From IMG/VR virus record IMGVR_UViG_3300044617_001032, positions 1-38,711 of that record: DNA of 38,711 bases; one strand, 5' to 3'. The number at the start of each line of letters is the position of its first letter. Position 1 is the first letter of the stretch. The translations under genes were made by a program, and so were the position numbers. Below, piece after piece: positions 492 to 37,017 of this stretch. The stretch is from a virus. The notes below the pieces were generated by a model. That model saw only the letters and a program-made list of their open reading frames with translations, searched no databases and was not told the origin of the DNA.

Positions 492-1025
492 ATGACACAA
501 CTAACAAAACTTCCGACACTTCAGGACCTATTAGTAGAAAACGAAGACAGCCTAAAGCAAAACGCGCTAACTGTATTATTGAACCAAGACCCGCCCGCTA
601 AGTGGTTAGTTCAGCATCCAATGATTCGCGATTACCGATATATTCCTATTGAAAAAATAGAATACTTACTAACGCGTATTTTTGGCAATTTTAACGTAGA
701 AATACGGTCAACACAGATAGTAGCTAACTCAGTAGTAGTAACTGTAAGACTGCATGTAATAAACCCTATAAACGGACAAGCGATGTGGCAAGATGGCATA
801 GGCGCTGCACCAATTCAAACTGATAAAGGCGCAGGGGCAACCGATTGGAACGCTGTTAAAACAGATGGTGTGCAAAAAGCTGCACCCGCCGCCGAAACAT
901 ACGCCGTTAAAGATGCTGCTGAAAAGTTTGGTAAAATATTTGGCCGCGATGTTAGCCGTAAAGGTTCTATGAATTATACTGATTTGCTGAAAAAATCAGC
1001 GTTTAATGATGAATTAGAAAAATAA
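492..1025 (+). CDS. Rad52-like single-strand annealing protein
   Basis: The 177-residue product has the layout of Rad52/Sak-type annealing proteins: an N-terminal region with a YIPIEKIEYLL helix and a following beta segment (about residues 53-90), a Gly/Ala-rich turn (about 105-117) and then an ETYAVKDAAEKFGKIFGRD helix (about 136-154). The last element resembles the A..R/KDA.K..G...G segment that marks Rad52-family and related phage recombinases. Such proteins coat single strands and anneal them during recombination-dependent replication and end repair. It follows the GIY-YIG-like gene by 6 bases, and a promoter and terminator lie just after it. Assignment is by motif only; an Erf- or DdrA-like label would be an alternative within the same functional class. 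Confidence 0.6.
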   Translation: MTQLTKLPTLQDLLVENEDSLKQNALTVLLNQDPPAKWLVQHPMIRDYRYIPIEKIEYLLTRIFGNFNVEIRSTQIVANSVVVTVRLHVINPINGQAMWQDGIGAAPIQTDKGAGATDWNAVKTDGVQKAAPAAETYAVKDAAEKFGKIFGRDVSRKGSMNYTDLLKKSAFNDELEK

Positions 1026-1079: not shown

Positions 1080-1111
1080 AACCGCTGTTTAACAAGTGCA
1101 GCGGTTTTTTT
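1080..1111 (+). terminator. Intrinsic terminator with a competing upstream hairpin
   Basis: AACCGCTG (1080-1087) pairs perfectly with CAGCGGTT (1099-1106) across an 11-base loop, and a T run extends to 1111. An alternative stem pairs GCGGTT (1067-1072) with AACCGC (1080-1085). It uses the same left arm, so the two structures exclude each other, as in an attenuator. The terminator could serve the upstream three-gene operon, the promoter at 1027-1058, or both. Confidence 0.7.
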
Positions 1112-1120
1112 ATTTGAAAT

Positions 1121-1400
1121 GTTAACACCATGTTACGCCAATTGTAACGCATAAAACGCTGATAATCATATCTTGTTACGCTGTTACACTTGTTACACCA
1201 CTTCAACACGTATATGCGTGTATTTTTTATGTTCATTCTCACATATATGTAGAATATAGTGTAACATACGTAACAGTGTAACATGTACTATATATCAATT
1301 ACTTATGTGTTACACTTAATGTAACAAGTGTTAACAATAATAATAAATAATAATAATAATTTAAATAATAATACTAATAATAATATAGATATAGTCTTAA
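1121..1400. repeat. TGTTACAC repeat array plus AAT-rich tract; candidate origin or control region
   Basis: The gene-free stretch 1112-1488 is not featureless. TGTTACAC occurs at 1182-1189, 1191-1198 and 1308-1315, and its reverse complement GTGTAACA at 1259-1266 and 1276-1283. Degenerate copies (TGTTACGC, TGTAACGC, CGTAACAG, TGTAACAA, GTTAAC) lie at 1131, 1174, 1143, 1269, 1320, 1121 and 1330. A short dyad ACACG/CGTGT sits at 1206-1221. The array is followed by a tract of AAT/TAA triplets from 1336 to about 1380, which should melt easily. Iterons next to an AT-rich tract are the usual look of an initiator-bound origin. A repressor-operator cluster or a terminase recognition site next to terS are alternatives. 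I see no gene in it. Confidence 0.6.
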
Positions 1401-1488: not shown

Positions 1489-1914
1489 ATGAAAGATACA
1501 GGTAGACCTATGAAATTCAAATCACCTGAAGAATTACAAAAGAAAATAGAAACTTACTTTGATTGGTGCGATTCACGTACACGCGTTAAGCATCTTGTTA
1601 CTAAAGATGGTGTTCAAGAAGTAGTTGAAAGTTTTCCCCGACCTTATACGGTTGAAGGGCTTGCTGTTTACTTAGATACATGCCGCGATACTTTGATAAA
1701 TTATTCAAACAAGGAAGCCTTTTTCGACATTATTAAACGCGCAAAGCAGAAAATACTGGCTAACAAGGTTGAAGGCGGATTAGATAGAACTTATGATATG
1801 GGTGTTGCTAAGTTTATGTTGATCAATAATTACGGCTTTAAGGATAAGCACGAAACAACCGAGGACGACAAAAACATAAACATCAACATTCAATACCCAC
1901 CTGAAGCTAAGTAG
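1489..1914 (+). CDS. terS: Terminase small subunit (P22 gp3-like)
   Basis: The 141-residue protein opens with GRPMKFKSPEELQKKIETYFDWCD and continues with a PYTVEGLAVYLD...RDTLINY helix-turn-helix-like region (about residues 52-70). Near the C-terminus is the AKFMLINNYGFKDKHET ending seen in P22 gp3-type small terminases of many phages. The small subunit recognises the packaging site on the concatemer and hands it to TerL. Its stop codon shares one base with the GTG start of terL, so the two are translationally coupled. The repeat array just upstream could include its binding site, though no test is possible here. An acidic, low-complexity C-terminus is probably the TerL-contact tail. Confidence 0.75.
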   Translation: MKDTGRPMKFKSPEELQKKIETYFDWCDSRTRVKHLVTKDGVQEVVESFPRPYTVEGLAVYLDTCRDTLINYSNKEAFFDIIKRAKQKILANKVEGGLDRTYDMGVAKFMLINNYGFKDKHETTEDDKNININIQYPPEAK

Positions 1915-3365
1915 TGCCGCGCAATATTGACATACAGCTTTATAAGCCACATACCGGGCAAAAACGAATATTAGATAATAAGCGCAGGTTTAACTGTATT
2001 GTTTGCGCGCGTAGGTTCGGCAAAACTGAGTTAATAACATCGGTTGCATTGCCGCTTATAAGCCCAGCTGTATTTGAAGGTAAGTTTGTAGGTATCTTTG
2101 TGGACGATTTTAAAGATTTTGCACAAAGCTGGAATAAGATAGTAGATACTTACAAAACTATTTCAGAAGGCGGAATCATAAAGCACAAAGATGAAACTTC
2201 TAAAATAATGCAATTCCTAAACGGCGGCGTTTTAGAAGTCTGGTCCATTGGCGATGAAGGGCGAAAGGATAAAGGGCGCGGGCGTAAGTATCACCGCGTT
2301 ATCTATGAAGAAACACAAAAGATACCGAGCCACATATTAGAATATCACTGGAAAACAGTTGCACGCCCTACCTTAACTGACTACAAAGGTGAGGCGTTTT
2401 TTATTGGTACAGCAGCGGGCAAAGATAACTACTGGTACGAACTATGCCGCAACGGTGCTAAGGCTGGCAATGTCGAAAAGAATTGTTATAATGATATAGA
2501 TTTGCCACAAAGCGAAAACGGCAGCGACAGCTGGATAACGTTTCGCATGGAAACAACAGATAACCCGGCGATTGATCCCGATGAAGTTGCCGATGCCAGC
2601 CGCGATTTGGACCGCCTAACGTTTGAACAGGAATACAAATCTGTATTTGTTGATTATAGTGGTGAGGCATGGGTTTACGTGCTAAAGGACAAAAGCATTC
2701 AACAAAAAGTATTTCAGCCTTCAAAAAAAATAAACTGGGAAACGGAACAGATTTACGTTTCGTTTGACTTTAACAAAATACCTATGACGGCCGCAGTAAT
2801 GAAACAAACTGTATTGCCAGCTAACATATCCGCTAAATCACGTTATAAGTACGGCGTTCACATTATCAAAGAATTTAAGATAGGTTCAGAGGAACGCGGT
2901 GAAGCTTCGATTTATGATACATGTCAAGCATTTCGCGAATGGATATTTGCAGAAACAAATAAGAAAATAGGGCGTTGGTCCGATACTGCTATTTATCCCT
3001 GTACTATACCGCTACTGATTACAGGTGATGCATCAGGTGATCGTTCCGATGGTAGACAGCGCGTATCTAAAACCTACTACGAAATTATACAGGAAGAACT
3101 GCAATTACCAGCGCGGTTCTTTGTAGTGCCTAAAGCTAACCCGCTGCATGCTGAAAGTTACGTTCAAACAAACACTATTATTAGCATGTGCCCAGACTTT
3201 CAGATTTATGAAGATAAATGCCCGGGTTTACGTATGGATTGTTTGCGCATCAAATCAGATAACAGTCGCCGAATCATTAAAGGCAAAGGTGAAGAAAGGC
3301 AGGCCGACTTACTTGATAATCTTAGATACTTACTTAACACGTTTTGTCAAGATATAAAACTATAA
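1914..3365 (+). CDS. terL: Terminase large subunit
   Basis: This 483-residue protein is the packaging motor and nuclease. Its ATPase half has a Walker A motif ARRFGKT at residues 32-38 and a Walker B-type VIYEE at 129-133, with a Tyr-Glu-Glu in place of the more usual Asp-Glu. The C-terminal RNase H-like nuclease half shows VSFDFN (Asp285), a GDASGD segment at 371-376 and a late acidic residue in DLLDNLRY near 465-472. The chosen start is a GTG that overlaps the last base of the terS stop codon; no better ATG lies nearby. TerL pumps DNA into the prohead through the portal and cuts it when the head is full or at a site. Length is normal for the family. Confidence 0.9.
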   Translation: MPRNIDIQLYKPHTGQKRILDNKRRFNCIVCARRFGKTELITSVALPLISPAVFEGKFVGIFVDDFKDFAQSWNKIVDTYKTISEGGIIKHKDETSKIMQFLNGGVLEVWSIGDEGRKDKGRGRKYHRVIYEETQKIPSHILEYHWKTVARPTLTDYKGEAFFIGTAAGKDNYWYELCRNGAKAGNVEKNCYNDIDLPQSENGSDSWITFRMETTDNPAIDPDEVADASRDLDRLTFEQEYKSVFVDYSGEAWVYVLKDKSIQQKVFQPSKKINWETEQIYVSFDFNKIPMTAAVMKQTVLPANISAKSRYKYGVHIIKEFKIGSEERGEASIYDTCQAFREWIFAETNKKIGRWSDTAIYPCTIPLLITGDASGDRSDGRQRVSKTYYEIIQEELQLPARFFVVPKANPLHAESYVQTNTIISMCPDFQIYEDKCPGLRMDCLRIKSDNSRRIIKGKGEERQADLLDNLRYLLNTFCQDIKL

Positions 3366-3369
3366 TCCT

Positions 3370-4206
3370 ATGATTTACCGCCCCAAAATTAAAGTACATT
3401 CTAATGAAGAAGTAGAATATTGGAAAAACATAATAAATGAAAAGCGCCGACAAAACAAAAGCCTTCAGCGCTGGTTAGTTGTTTCAGATGTACACAGGCC
3501 GTTTCATAATCAGATACTTTGGCAAAAGCTATTAAGGCTTATATCTGAACTCGGCACTAATTTACACGGCATTGTTTTAGCGGGTGATTATTTAGATCTT
3601 TATACACTTGGCAGCTATAATGCCGAATCATTATCTAACTTATCGGGCCTAACATTGCAGGATGAATATATAGACGGATTGCAAGGCATTGACGATATTA
3701 ACAGCGCGTTTAAAGGTGCTAAGAAATATTTTTTATTTGGCAACCATGAAGACCGATACTTCAGGCACATCAAAGAAAAGGATAACGCAAAATATGGCGG
3801 TGCGTTAATAAATCCTACTGATGCCTTATACCTGTACGAACGTGGATGGGAAGTTAAAACAGATTGGCAGTCTGACTATTTCACGCTTGGCAAACACTTA
3901 GATATAGTTCACGGCGTTTACACATCTATTCACGCGGCAAAAGCGCACTTAGACAAAACGCAGCACTCAGTTATGTTTGGCCATACGCACCGGGTTCAAT
4001 GCTATCACTCAGGTAATAGGGCCGCGTTTAATATTGGCGGGCTATATGATATCAAATCAAAAGGTTTTAGCTATATGCCGAGATTTCAACGTCAATTGTG
4101 GGCTAATGGTTTCGCCATCGTCAATATAAATGACAATGGCGATTTTTACGTAGAACAGGTTAACGTTTGGGCAGATAAGTTTTTAGCTAACGGTAAGATG
4201 TACTAA
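3370..4206 (+). CDS. Calcineurin-like metallophosphoesterase
   Basis: All signature blocks of the calcineurin-like phosphoesterase fold are present in order across 278 residues: SDVHRP (D-x-H) near residue 39, GDYLDL (G-D-x-x-D) near 74, GNHED near 125, a VHG near 180 and GHTHR near 204. These bind two metal ions and the catalytic His. The enzyme hydrolyses a phosphoester, but the substrate is not visible; phage relatives are sometimes DNA-processing or cyclic-nucleotide enzymes. It starts 4 bases after terL and ends the + strand packaging operon, facing a - strand operon across a hairpin. A similar phosphoesterase next to terminase genes is seen in other phages, so a role near packaging or DNA ends is possible but inferred. 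Confidence 0.85.
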   Translation: MIYRPKIKVHSNEEVEYWKNIINEKRRQNKSLQRWLVVSDVHRPFHNQILWQKLLRLISELGTNLHGIVLAGDYLDLYTLGSYNAESLSNLSGLTLQDEYIDGLQGIDDINSAFKGAKKYFLFGNHEDRYFRHIKEKDNAKYGGALINPTDALYLYERGWEVKTDWQSDYFTLGKHLDIVHGVYTSIHAAKAHLDKTQHSVMFGHTHRVQCYHSGNRAAFNIGGLYDIKSKGFSYMPRFQRQLWANGFAIVNINDNGDFYVEQVNVWADKFLANGKMY

Positions 4207-4244: not shown

Positions 4245-4643
4245 TCACAAATTGTGACTTCGTATAAACATAGTAGTATAAGGATGGCCGCCGCCTGTAA
4301 ACATTATACCTTTATAAGGCCAATTGAAATGATTAGTAATATGCAGCTGCCAATGCTCCCAAGGCGTTTTGTACTTAGGTTCTTTAAAGTCTAACCAAAA
4401 GTATGCCCTGTGCGTTTTTAGTTCGTTATTTAATAATGAAACCCACGAATAATAACGCGATTCTGATTCTAAAACTGAATAATGCCGCGATGGCTGCCAG
4501 AATTTAAAGCGCTTATGTTTTCTGTAAAACTTACGGGTTAACGGAAAACATTTAAACGAATCATTAAGGATTAAACCAAGTTCAATATTATCACTATGAC
4601 CGCTTAAAATTAGTTCGCGTATCGATTTAGATTCCGTTTGCAT
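4245..4643 (-). CDS. Unknown protein, last gene of the sigma factor operon
   Basis: This 132-residue protein is not recognised. It begins with a short helical segment (SIRELILSGHSDNIELGLIL) of a type common at the start of uncharacterised Bacteroidota proteins. The rest is unusually rich in aromatic and basic residues (many Trp, Tyr, Phe, His, Lys), suggesting a compact nucleic-acid- or protein-binding fold. There is no signal peptide or membrane segment. Its start overlaps the end of the sigma factor gene by 17 bases, so it is translated with it, which makes a role as a sigma partner or early regulator conceivable. That is inference from position only. Confidence 0.6.
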   Translation of the reverse strand: MQTESKSIRELILSGHSDNIELGLILNDSFKCFPLTRKFYRKHKRFKFWQPSRHYSVLESESRYYSWVSLLNNELKTHRAYFWLDFKEPKYKTPWEHWQLHITNHFNWPYKGIMFTGGGHPYTTMFIRSHNL

Positions 4644-5394
4644 ACTTATTTCTTATTTTTTTATACGCTTGTTTTTCTATTTGCCTGACACGTTCACGGC
4701 AAACTTTTAGTTTTTCCGCTACTTGGCTTAAATCTTGCGGAAAGGTATCAAAGTATCTATACCTTAAAACTTCTAATTCACGGCCTGTTAAACATTCGGT
4801 AACTTCGTAGTAAAGTTCTTTAAGTTCTAACTGTAAAACGTGTTTATCTGTTTGGTCATCAGATGCGACTTGATAAATAATATCGCCATCAAAATTAGTA
4901 TCGTCTAAGCTAACGAAGCCTGTAATACTTTGAGCTGATTTAATAATATTTTCAGGTATGTTTAGTTTTTCCGATAACAGGTAACTATCTGTTTCTTCAT
5001 ACTTACCTATTTGGTATCGAACTTGAGATATTCGATGCGGCAGCCTTACGCAGTTTTTCTTAGTATCAATAAAGTCTTTAATGTAGCGCTGAATCTGAAA
5101 TAATGCGTAACTTATAAACTTGTTATCATATGCCGGGTTAAATGTATCGGCCGCTTTGATTAGGCCAAACATAGCTTCACTAATTAAATCCATTATATCA
5201 ACATTTGCAGTATCGTAACGGAACGCAACTGATGCGGCAAATAACATATTGTGATTGATTAGTTGTTCGCGTGTTGCGGTCCGTTCCTGTTCGAATGTTA
5301 GCGGCTTATACTTTTGTGCTTCGGTTAAGAACTGCTGTAGAATACCTTTTTTGTTTCGGTGGTTATTGCCTTTAATATCTATATGCTTAATCAT
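4627..5394 (-). CDS. Phage-encoded sigma-70 family RNA polymerase sigma factor
   Basis: The 255-residue protein has a full region 2 (about residues 45-115: LINHNMLFAASVAFRYD...DLISEAMFGLIKAADTF...FISYALFQIQRYIKDFI), which binds the polymerase clamp and the -10 element. A region 3 segment (about 118-160) and a region 4 helix-turn-helix near the C-terminus (LTGRELEVLRYRYF...RERVRQIEKQAYKKIR) follow. It lacks region 1.1, as alternative sigmas do, but resembles primary-type sigmas more than ECF factors because region 3 is present. It should redirect host RNA polymerase to phage promoters. It lies in a four-gene - strand unit driven by a host-like promoter at 6080-6110, divergent from the + strand tail operon. 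That is the layout expected for an early-made activator of late genes. Confidence 0.88.
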   Translation of the reverse strand: MIKHIDIKGNNHRNKKGILQQFLTEAQKYKPLTFEQERTATREQLINHNMLFAASVAFRYDTANVDIMDLISEAMFGLIKAADTFNPAYDNKFISYALFQIQRYIKDFIDTKKNCVRLPHRISQVRYQIGKYEETDSYLLSEKLNIPENIIKSAQSITGFVSLDDTNFDGDIIYQVASDDQTDKHVLQLELKELYYEVTECLTGRELEVLRYRYFDTFPQDLSQVAEKLKVCRERVRQIEKQAYKKIRNKYANGI

Positions 5395-35301: not shown

Positions 35302-37017
35302 TTATAAATTTTTTAAATTTATTGAAACGCAACGCCCCGACATGCCAGCCGCAAAACGCGTATTACTTCGACGTGATGCGCCTTTAAGCCTTAATAAGAT
35401 AGTATTCCATGATATTTGCCAAGGTGTGCCGCTTAAAACTTTTTTTACATAAACAGATGTATTTAGTATTAGTAAGTCATCACCAATTACGCGAATACCT
35501 AAACGCATTAGTCTTTCGTTTGCTTCGGCCTGTGATGGCTTAACCGATGGCTGGTAATTAAATGCGCATTCAACTAATTCGCCTATCGTTTTATTGCCTA
35601 CATAGTTTTCAGCTTCTATTCGTATTTCCTGACTTAGTATCTGTTGCAAACATCTTTGTTCATCTGTTAGATCTTCTTTGTCTTCTTCATATTTGCGCAT
35701 TTCTAAAATCGCGTTTGCTTCTTCTAATGCTATTTCTGCCGTTACCGGGTCATCGTGCAGCGTATGCCACCAACCGCCCATAAGCGCACCAAACTGATCA
35801 CCTACTGCCCTATCTTCAGTTAATAGCGATACTGCGTTTGTAAATAGTTTTATGCTTTTTTGTATGTTATCAGCTAAGTTTAGCATTCGCGCCTGAAAAC
35901 GTGGCCCGAAATCATCAGTAATAACTTTGCTTTTTAGCTTTTCAAGTTCGTTAAATTGTTTAGGGTCGGGTAATTTCTTTAGTTCCAAAACACAAAAACG
36001 GCGCTTATCTGAATCGTTTACTAACTGCGGATTTATGCTTACAAATAAAAAACAGCTTCTAACAAAATAATCAATAGCTTTACCATCTTTGCCGCCTTTA
36101 GCAATTGCAGGTGATTTTTCACTACTTGCTGCCCTTGCTAATCCTATTATTTCCTGCATCCGTTGTGCGGCGCGTTCATCATTACCTTCGCCTTCATCTA
36201 TTGTAACAGGTAGTGCATCACTGTTTAGTTTTTGCCTTACAGCTGGTTCGGTTGCCGCTGTGCCCTGTACACTAACGGCGATATTACCGATAACTTCATT
36301 TATAATATTTTCTAAAACCCAACTTTTGCCGTTTCCCCTTGGGCCTGTTATCCAAACGTGAGGCCGCCATTTTAATATACCCGAAATCGGCGCCAATGCT
36401 AACCAACCCGATAATAGTATTGCATCGGCCTTTGTTTGCCAATTTAGTTTATTTAACATCTTAGGTATCATACCCGCCTCAGTAGGTAGCAGCGCCGCTT
36501 CAATTGGCATATCAATAGCCTTATTATAAACATAGCTGTATTTAGTATCTAAGCCGCCTAAATTGTAGCGCTTTTTATCTTGTATAAGCTGTTGCCCGGC
36601 ATGAAATACTACGCCGTTTTTTTCCTGCCATGCACCGCGACCGCGTATGTTTTCAGTATTATAAAAACCAATCGCATTGCAGAAATTTATAAGATAATCT
36701 GCCGCCGTGGTTACTTCGTAATTACTATTGTCACGATTTGGAAAACTTGTTACCCAAAATTCTAACGGCGCTATGCTCAATAAATTAGCCTTGTTTATTG
36801 TTACAGCTTTATACTTTACTATTGACATAGTTGAACGAATGTAGAAATAGTAAAGCATTTGCCCATCTTCAATGCCCCATCCTAACGGCCTAAAATAGCC
36901 ACCTATAAAACCTTTTTTATCGGTTTCAGGTGCTGATGCTGCTGGCCGTTCTGCTTTCGGTTTCTTTGTACTCTGTTTGGGTTTTTGTTCCCAGTCTATT
37001 GGTTTGTCTTGTTTCAT
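35302..37017 (-). CDS. P-loop replication ATPase, primase-helicase-like (DUF927-type)
   Basis: The 571-residue protein has an ATPase core with Walker A GPRGNGKS (225-232) and Walker B VTIDEGE (271-277), then a SCFLFVSINPQ segment (about 310-322) fitting a sensor or arginine-finger zone. The order resembles DUF927- or VirE-type phage helicase/primase C-terminal domains. The N-terminal 200 residues (APLEFWVT, TAADYLINFCNAIGF) have no clear primase motif. It probably works at the fork with the neighbouring DnaB N-terminal-domain gene, whose stop overlaps its start by 4 bases. Whether it is the true helicase is inferred. The Pro/Lys/Ala-rich N-terminal 35 residues are probably disordered. Confidence 0.7.
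   Translation of the reverse strand: MKQDKPIDWEQKPKQSTKKPKAERPAASAPETDKKGFIGGYFRPLGWGIEDGQMLYYFYIRSTMSIVKYKAVTINKANLLSIAPLEFWVTSFPNRDNSNYEVTTAADYLINFCNAIGFYNTENIRGRGAWQEKNGVVFHAGQQLIQDKKRYNLGGLDTKYSYVYNKAIDMPIEAALLPTEAGMIPKMLNKLNWQTKADAILLSGWLALAPISGILKWRPHVWITGPRGNGKSWVLENIINEVIGNIAVSVQGTAATEPAVRQKLNSDALPVTIDEGEGNDERAAQRMQEIIGLARAASSEKSPAIAKGGKDGKAIDYFVRSCFLFVSINPQLVNDSDKRRFCVLELKKLPDPKQFNELEKLKSKVITDDFGPRFQARMLNLADNIQKSIKLFTNAVSLLTEDRAVGDQFGALMGGWWHTLHDDPVTAEIALEEANAILEMRKYEEDKEDLTDEQRCLQQILSQEIRIEAENYVGNKTIGELVECAFNYQPSVKPSQAEANERLMRLGIRVIGDDLLILNTSVYVKKVLSGTPWQISWNTILLRLKGASRRSNTRFAAGMSGRCVSINLKNL

Follow-up and report, generated by a model that had tools for sequence, protein, structure and literature searches.

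A virus record from IMG/VR (IMGVR_UViG_3300044617_001032), one strand of 38,711 bases that we refer to throughout as the window, carries at positions 1131 to 1326 a dense array of short repeats with the core TGTTAC. We propose from sequence comparison that this array is most probably an iteron-type replication origin of the kind used by the alpha protein of P4 and by the Rep proteins of phage-inducible chromosomal islands (PICIs), and that a D5/Cch-type helicase encoded on the same contig (35302 to 37017) is its likely initiator. We favor this reading because of the specific layout of the array, the D5-like helicase genes that neighbor such arrays elsewhere, the presence of homologues of the window helicase itself at arrays, the fold match of that helicase to Cch and to the Rep protein of Staphylococcus aureus pathogenicity islands (SaPIs), and the decoupling of the array from the terminase small subunit, TerS. 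The initial annotation had suggested an origin with initiator sites but had stated that no initiator gene was known nearby; the comparative evidence favors the first suggestion, and the helicase gene corrects the second.

Five exact copies of the 8-mer TGTTACAC in both orientations had been described in the initial annotation, and all five were indeed found, on both strands, at 1182 to 1315, with no copy in the rest of the window. Shuffled versions of the window contained 1.45 copies on average, and 1 of 100 shuffles reached five copies anywhere in the 38.7 kb. When one mismatch was allowed, there was no window-wide enrichment (46 matches versus 40.1 expected), yet 10 of the 46 fell inside 1087 to 1326. 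The 6-mer TGTTAC is a better repeat unit than the 8-mer. Nine TGTTAC cores (listed with their strands in Table 1) lie within the 196 bp of the array, spaced at 8 and 9 bp where they are tightly grouped, and the iteron reads TGTTAC(A/G)C; the other 38.5 kb of the window contains 28 cores, the densest other 260-bp stretch has two, and the Poisson chance of such an array is 4.7e-14. The window array thus has the clustered short iterons (about 6–9 bp) of a P4-alpha/PICI-Rep type origin, and it also has the layout of two sets flanking an AT-rich region, although the AT excess of the centre is modest (70% versus 65% for the window) and the strongest AT tract of the region, at 92%, lies outside the two iteron sets. 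The dyad and the AAT tract noted previously are both real; the dyad, ACACGTATATGCGTGT, lies in a part of the array that is poorly conserved in the family alignment. GC skew across the window tracked gene direction and marked no replication start.

The same layout was found well beyond the window and its relatives. Dense arrays were present in most of the 80 viral loci listed from a scan for three successive TGTTAC, and a strict layout (two TGTTAC, 60–90 bases, two GTAACA) occurred in at least 119 stretches of viral contigs, both scans giving lower bounds. In prokaryote contigs, with one genome per species, there were 64 such stretches, including contigs labeled Halorubrum, Methanoregula, Nitrosopumilus, Thermococcus, a Crenarchaeota archaeon, and a methanogenic archaeon. 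Control six-mers placed in the identical layout in viral contigs gave 0 stretches for TGATTC and 5, from a single phage family, for CATTGT; the P4-like core TGTTCA gave 25. A D5-like open reading frame (ORF) was present in 16 of the 25 TGTTCA loci, within 300 bp of the array in 4 of them, and in 0 of the 5 CATTGT loci with the hidden Markov models (HMMs) used here. The control-motif phage family (L441–L445) has CATTGTCACC repeats that converge on an AT-rich centre, which looks like an origin with another iteron.

To describe the genes that accompany the arrays, we used 164 array loci selected by motif, that is, 178 arrays minus 14 loci of the window's family; they are not all independent and comprise 152 distinct arrays. 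In these 152, a gap of three bases was the commonest between same-strand neighbors (389 of 734). The convergent centre was 68% AT versus 54% for the whole loci and was enriched in TATATA and alternating CGCGCACA; part of them shared a AACCCTTG...CAAGGGTT-like element in their divergent spacers, none of which was seen in the window. When the neighboring ORFs were clustered by BLAST without reference to annotation, a single helicase cluster spanned 93 loci, with 82 of its 110 ORFs no more than 300 bp from the array; for the next clusters the corresponding numbers were 8 of 43, 0 of 25 (TerL, the terminase large subunit, by sequence), 2 of 26, 1 of 20 (unrelated), and 7 of 16 (TerS by sequence). 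An HMM search placed a D5-like initiator helicase in 95 of the 164 loci, within 300 bp of the array in 80; for 72 of the 80, the array was located at, or overlapped, the 3′ terminus of that gene. The association was similar in loci from genomes (36 of 64 with a helicase, 30 near) and from viruses (59 of 100, 50 near). The non-redundant near-array helicases numbered 59, of which 52 made up the helicase alignment; Pfam matches in 52 of the 59 were to DUF5906 (36), VapE-like (18), D5_N (15), Pox_D5 (8), Prim-Pol (5), and NrS-1 HBD (4).

Homologues of the 571-aa window helicase were detected by BLAST at 0–82 bp from arrays in five unrelated loci, L374 (34% identity over 539 aa), L402, L395, L363, and L313, and at 0.8 and 2.2 kb from the array in L299 and L332. 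The protein matched a PHROG family named "DNA primase" (7.6e-97) and, weakly, DUF5906; no AEP (archaeo-eukaryotic primase) domain was detected in it by Pfam and PHROG domain searches. With an AlphaFold (AF2) model of the helicase (mean predicted local distance difference test score, pLDDT, 83.7), the closest Foldseek matches were the D5, NrS-1 (C-terminal region, the top match), and SaPI5 helicases, and the top VIA-align match was Cch of the staphylococcal cassette chromosome mec (SCCmec; 5dgk, Z 15.3, 424 residues aligned, root-mean-square deviation, rmsd, 7.7, model residues 29–570), with SaPI5 7om0 at Z 13.4. The isolated C-terminal domain (pLDDT 90.5) gave weaker matches: at the top, residues 452–552 of SaPIbov1 Rep (Z 5.2, 85 aligned, rmsd 3.3) and, at rank 5 of 610 chains, Cch (Z 3.6). 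A profile search with the helicase alignment against sequences of solved structures gave no match, the link to Cch and SaPI Rep being one of fold comparison only. The window thus encodes a D5/superfamily 3 (SF3)-like helicase with a C-terminal putative DNA-binding domain whose fold match is weak. One contig of 46 kb (IMGVR_UViG_3300044675_004667; L095, L113) encodes the helicase twice, near its opposite ends, with 93% and 86% identity to that of the window, and may be an overlapping or mixed assembly.

We propose that the winged-helix-like C-terminal domain of the helicase would bind the TGTTAC repeats of both sets, and that helicase rings would assemble face to face on the convergent pair of sets and open up AT-rich DNA, either the 64-bp centre or the adjoining AAT tract or both. 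Forks could then depart both ways, with the phage DnaB-N-like protein, single-stranded DNA-binding protein (SSB), and the host replisome joining them.

Several observations weigh against an origin read by this helicase. The helicase gene is 6.7–9.0 kb from the array in the window's family (9 contigs, one measured across contig ends), so that the array does not lie directly 3′ of the proposed initiator gene, as it does in the unrelated loci with homologous helicases; because P4 has an ori away from the alpha gene besides the crr next to it, we did not take a helicase-adjacent origin as required. A helicase homologue was present in 23 cultured-phage records, a set unselected by motif, of which we inspected 19, the remainder being duplicates or near-duplicates, and only 3 of the 19 had TGTTAC pairs; these pairs were 1.7 kb past the helicase gene in Serratia phage MQ-4 and about 330 bp before it in Acinetobacter phage Acjo_20, and in Bdellovibrio phage phi1422 a TGTTAC array begins 10 bp past the gene. 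Some of the other cultured phages with a homologue have repeat arrays of another sequence, at the gene end in two cases (S-H1, MinM1), and in those of roughly 90 kb no repeat array was found. The non-TGTTAC repeats indicate that this helicase family does not always go with TGTTAC and that the iteron varies. Also on this side are the weakness of the C-terminal fold match noted above and a Foldseek search with that domain alone, which gave no significant match (best E 0.28, to another protein). With the HMMs used here, 69 of the 164 loci had no D5-like ORF, and some of these carry other helicases at the side of the array, with DUF927 (two with the Cch helix-turn-helix domain), DUF3987, or DUF3631. 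Finally, some TGTTAC arrays lie next to terS in phages of the marine type that encode an AEP-TOTE primase (8 of 20 records); a search of 3 long contigs of array phages of this type detected no D5-like helicase, and 27 of 28 terS-side array records had no DUF5906 hit, although the DUF5906 model overlooked a clear D5-like gene in G005 and barely matches the window helicase.

The arrays beside DUF927, DUF3987, and DUF3631 helicases and in AEP-TOTE phages where no D5 helicase was found, as well as the distance of the helicase gene in the window's family, would fit an origin with another initiator, in which a different phage or host protein reads TGTTAC and the D5-like helicase is merely loaded there. 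Homologues of the window helicase lie directly at arrays in five unrelated loci, however, and the helicases of P4, SaPI, and Cch2 are themselves reported, in the published passages that deal with them, to bind repeats; we therefore consider another initiator unlikely. Marine-type phages with terS-adjacent TGTTAC arrays, several with an AEP-TOTE primase, include L130, L156, L173, L192, L310, L311, L326, L372, and others. In cultured phage MinM1 of Synechococcus (L424, from 4529), twelve CTCACA repeats stand at the 3′ end of the gene for the helicase homologue.

Conservation of the array was followed in the window's phage family, taken as close relatives by the window TerL in viral contigs (the best 80 of 127), which gave 78 rows matched by terS, 77 loci plus the window. 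There were at least six TGTTAC sites near terS in 59 rows, five in 5 rows, and zero to three in 14. The 12 rows with zero sites start inside terS or at most 140 bases before it, and L033 and L076, with two and three sites, come from contigs cut close to the array; three of the five-site rows were also cut (L018, L061, L081) and two were uncut (L036, L075). The family arrays comprise 49 distinct sequences, and in the 42 distinct array rows that were aligned, iteron-core columns were 94% conserved versus 77% for the other columns (P = 8e-11). Wherever a family locus had six or more sites (59 loci), an AAT tract followed the array, its best 50 bases averaging 97% AT, and both elements are thus kept in related phages. 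A ParB-like gene of 373 codons separates array and AT tract from terS in L029, with the same spacing in L031 and L032, and a small gene does so in L057 and L078, the spacing of L057 being shared by L058. From these insertions we concluded that array and tract form one unit for which no contact with terS is required. The array of L079 (1848–2059) is a hybrid with a window-type left half and an L080-like right half, suggesting recombination within the origin. No close DNA match of the array region was found in cultured phages.

The initial annotation had also offered an operator field or a terminase site as alternatives, and both are weaker than an origin, given the decoupling from TerS, whose identity falls to about 50% beside near-identical arrays, and the persistence of array and AT tract as a unit where a gene parts them from terS. 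A packaging site (pac or cos) recognized by TerS would be in keeping with the position of terS, which adjoins the array in the window's family and in several unrelated phages, and with a partial linkage of array type A versus B to TerS allele (16/13 versus 2/13, Fisher P 0.01), the types A, B, and C being assigned by a pattern rule of our own. A packaging site would be expected to change with its TerS, but this linkage was weak, and discordance was frequent in a comparison that included 58 loci with full array and upstream flank and 51 with full TerS. Arrays at least 95% identical were paired with TerS less than 60% identical in 74 of 153 pairs, TerS at least 90% identical were paired with arrays less than 75% identical in 179 of 336 pairs, and the Spearman coefficient was 0.12. 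Because discordant pairs are so many, we read the linkage of array type and TerS allele as shared ancestry. Moreover, outside the family the array goes with the helicase much more often than with terS (82 of 110 versus 7 of 16 ORFs within 300 bp), and the ParB-like gene of L029 parts array and tract from terS. Taken together, these results make a packaging site very improbable. Among phages whose TerL are 93–99% identical (window, terS at 1489 to 1914, and L002–L081), terS is about 46–99% identical and, given this divergence beside near-identical TerL, appears to be freely exchanged in the family. Two Pelagibacter phages related by TerS had no TGTTAC pairs; in one Pelagibacter phage, HTVC023P (L439, about 3250–3480), repeated CTAGGAAA units upstream of terS form a different short-repeat array in the same place.

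A field of operator or enhancer sites that governs the late (terS) transcript would agree with the location of the array upstream of a long late operon and behind a terminator-like hairpin, and with a sigma-like gene of the phage's own (4627 to 5394). A scan for promoters of the sigma-70-like type only, however, gave 4 matches versus 5.3 expected from shuffles, family members exist with an extra gene between array and terS, and the usual place of the array in unrelated loci is the 3′ end of a helicase gene, not the front of a late operon, leaving an operator field with slightly less credit still than a packaging site. The least credible alternative, with a probability we regard as close to negligible, is a partition-like (centromere) array: clustered short repeats and the ParB-like gene beside the array in some relatives (L029) would suit it, whereas the array region of the window has no ParB-like gene, and the convergent two-set layout and the helicase association fit an origin better.

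The features of the window are collected in Table 1. The hairpin upstream of the array is absent from the list given by a consensus scan. A small GIY-YIG-like (T5orf172/MUG113) ORF at 135 to 485 adjoins the ERF-like gene and has a counterpart in few relatives' loci, and the sigma-factor-like gene is on the minus strand within the late gene region.

Table 1. Coordinates of the TGTTAC array, the proposed initiator helicase, and neighboring features in the window
Feature	Position	Strand	Details
Left iteron set	1131–1196	+	TGTTAC at 1131, 1174, 1182, 1191; 8–9 bp spacing in last three; conserved in relatives
Degenerate GTAAC within left iteron set	1144–1148		
Centre between convergent iteron sets	1197–1260		64 bp; 70% AT; candidate melting region
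Dyad ACACGTATATGCGTGT	1206–1221		Inside array centre
Right iteron set	1261–1326	−	GTAACA at 1261, 1270, 1278 (−); TGTTAC at 1308 (+); GTAACA at 1321 (−)
AAT-rich tract	1334–1398 (about)		92% AT; second candidate melting region
D5/Cch-type AAA+ helicase, proposed initiator	35302–37017	−	571 aa
Helicase C-terminal domain, proposed iteron-binding, winged-helix-like	35302–35700	−	Residues 440–571
Rad52/ERF-like annealing protein gene	492–1025	+	Upstream of array; PF04098, 4e-05
Intrinsic-terminator-like hairpin and T-run	1080–1112	+	Between ERF/Rad52-like gene and array; z −3.5
terS, terminase small subunit	1489–1914	+	163 bp downstream of array

These results point to a probable origin, with its probable initiator, for a large family of uncultured phages, and they provide a simple sequence rule for locating origins in viral contigs. 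Literature searches for TGTTAC/GTAACA iterons, or for TGTTACAC, together with phage found no description of a TGTTAC array; this type of origin is known as a kind, and how widely the TGTTAC layout extends among viruses of prokaryotes appears, as far as these searches show, not to have been described. A broader proposal, which we offer tentatively and which may well prove too broad, is that TGTTAC/GTAACA, phased at about 9 bp, serves viruses and mobile elements of prokaryotes as a near-universal origin code. The same 6-bp iteron in its convergent layout would then be used across Bacteria and Archaea by D5/VapE, DUF927, DUF3987, and DUF3631 helicases and, beside terS, by phages with an AEP-TOTE primase; either a single ancient DNA-binding domain would have been handed from helicase to helicase, or there would have been strong convergence on this sequence. 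As the layout occurs in so many replicons, how iteron specificity evolved in D5-type helicases can be tested directly by pairing helicase C-termini with repeats.

Among known systems, the AEP-SF3 replication proteins of the NrS-1 and pRN1 type have a helicase core related to that of the window protein, which differs from them in having no detected AEP primase domain; for pRN1 and one phage, excerpts of the literature describe the proposed origin as a 100-nt stem-loop, not iterons (PMC4234260). The predicted model of the window helicase aligns with Cch of SCCmec over almost its whole length, and extracts from a report on Cch2 describe binding of its C-terminal domain to short AAGTG direct repeats downstream of the cch2 gene (PMC7581432). 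The Cch2 repeat, AAGTG in three copies, differs from the window iteron, and SCCmec is a DNA mobile island whereas the window is a phage. P4 has annotated type 1 repeats that are TGTTCACC-like 8-mers; those of crr, which immediately follows the 3′ end of the alpha gene, run ++ and then −−+, and ori contains another cluster. Passages on the alpha initiator attribute repeat binding to its winged helix domain (PMC4234260). The window array resembles P4 ori and crr in having 8-bp repeats that begin with TGTT, in both orientations and in convergent sets, the tight spacing in P4 being 9–11 bp; it differs in its iteron (TGTTAC(A/G)C versus TGTTCACC), in being one array rather than ori plus crr, in belonging to a full-size tailed phage, in lying away from the helicase gene, and in its additional AAT tract. 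The origins of PICIs and SaPIs are located at the 3′ end of the Rep gene, as are the arrays in most of the unrelated helicase loci, and the window helicase is predicted to share the fold of these Rep proteins (SaPI5 7om0; the C-terminal domain of SaPIbov1 Rep). Unlike these islands, the window phage has its own structural genes, and its family keeps the array kilobases from the helicase gene. According to extracts from a 2018 study, the PICI type of origin layout was held to be common to no other bacterial replicon (PMC6092414); in contrast to that view, the layout is now seen in phage contigs with structural genes, in many bacterial groups, and in some archaea.
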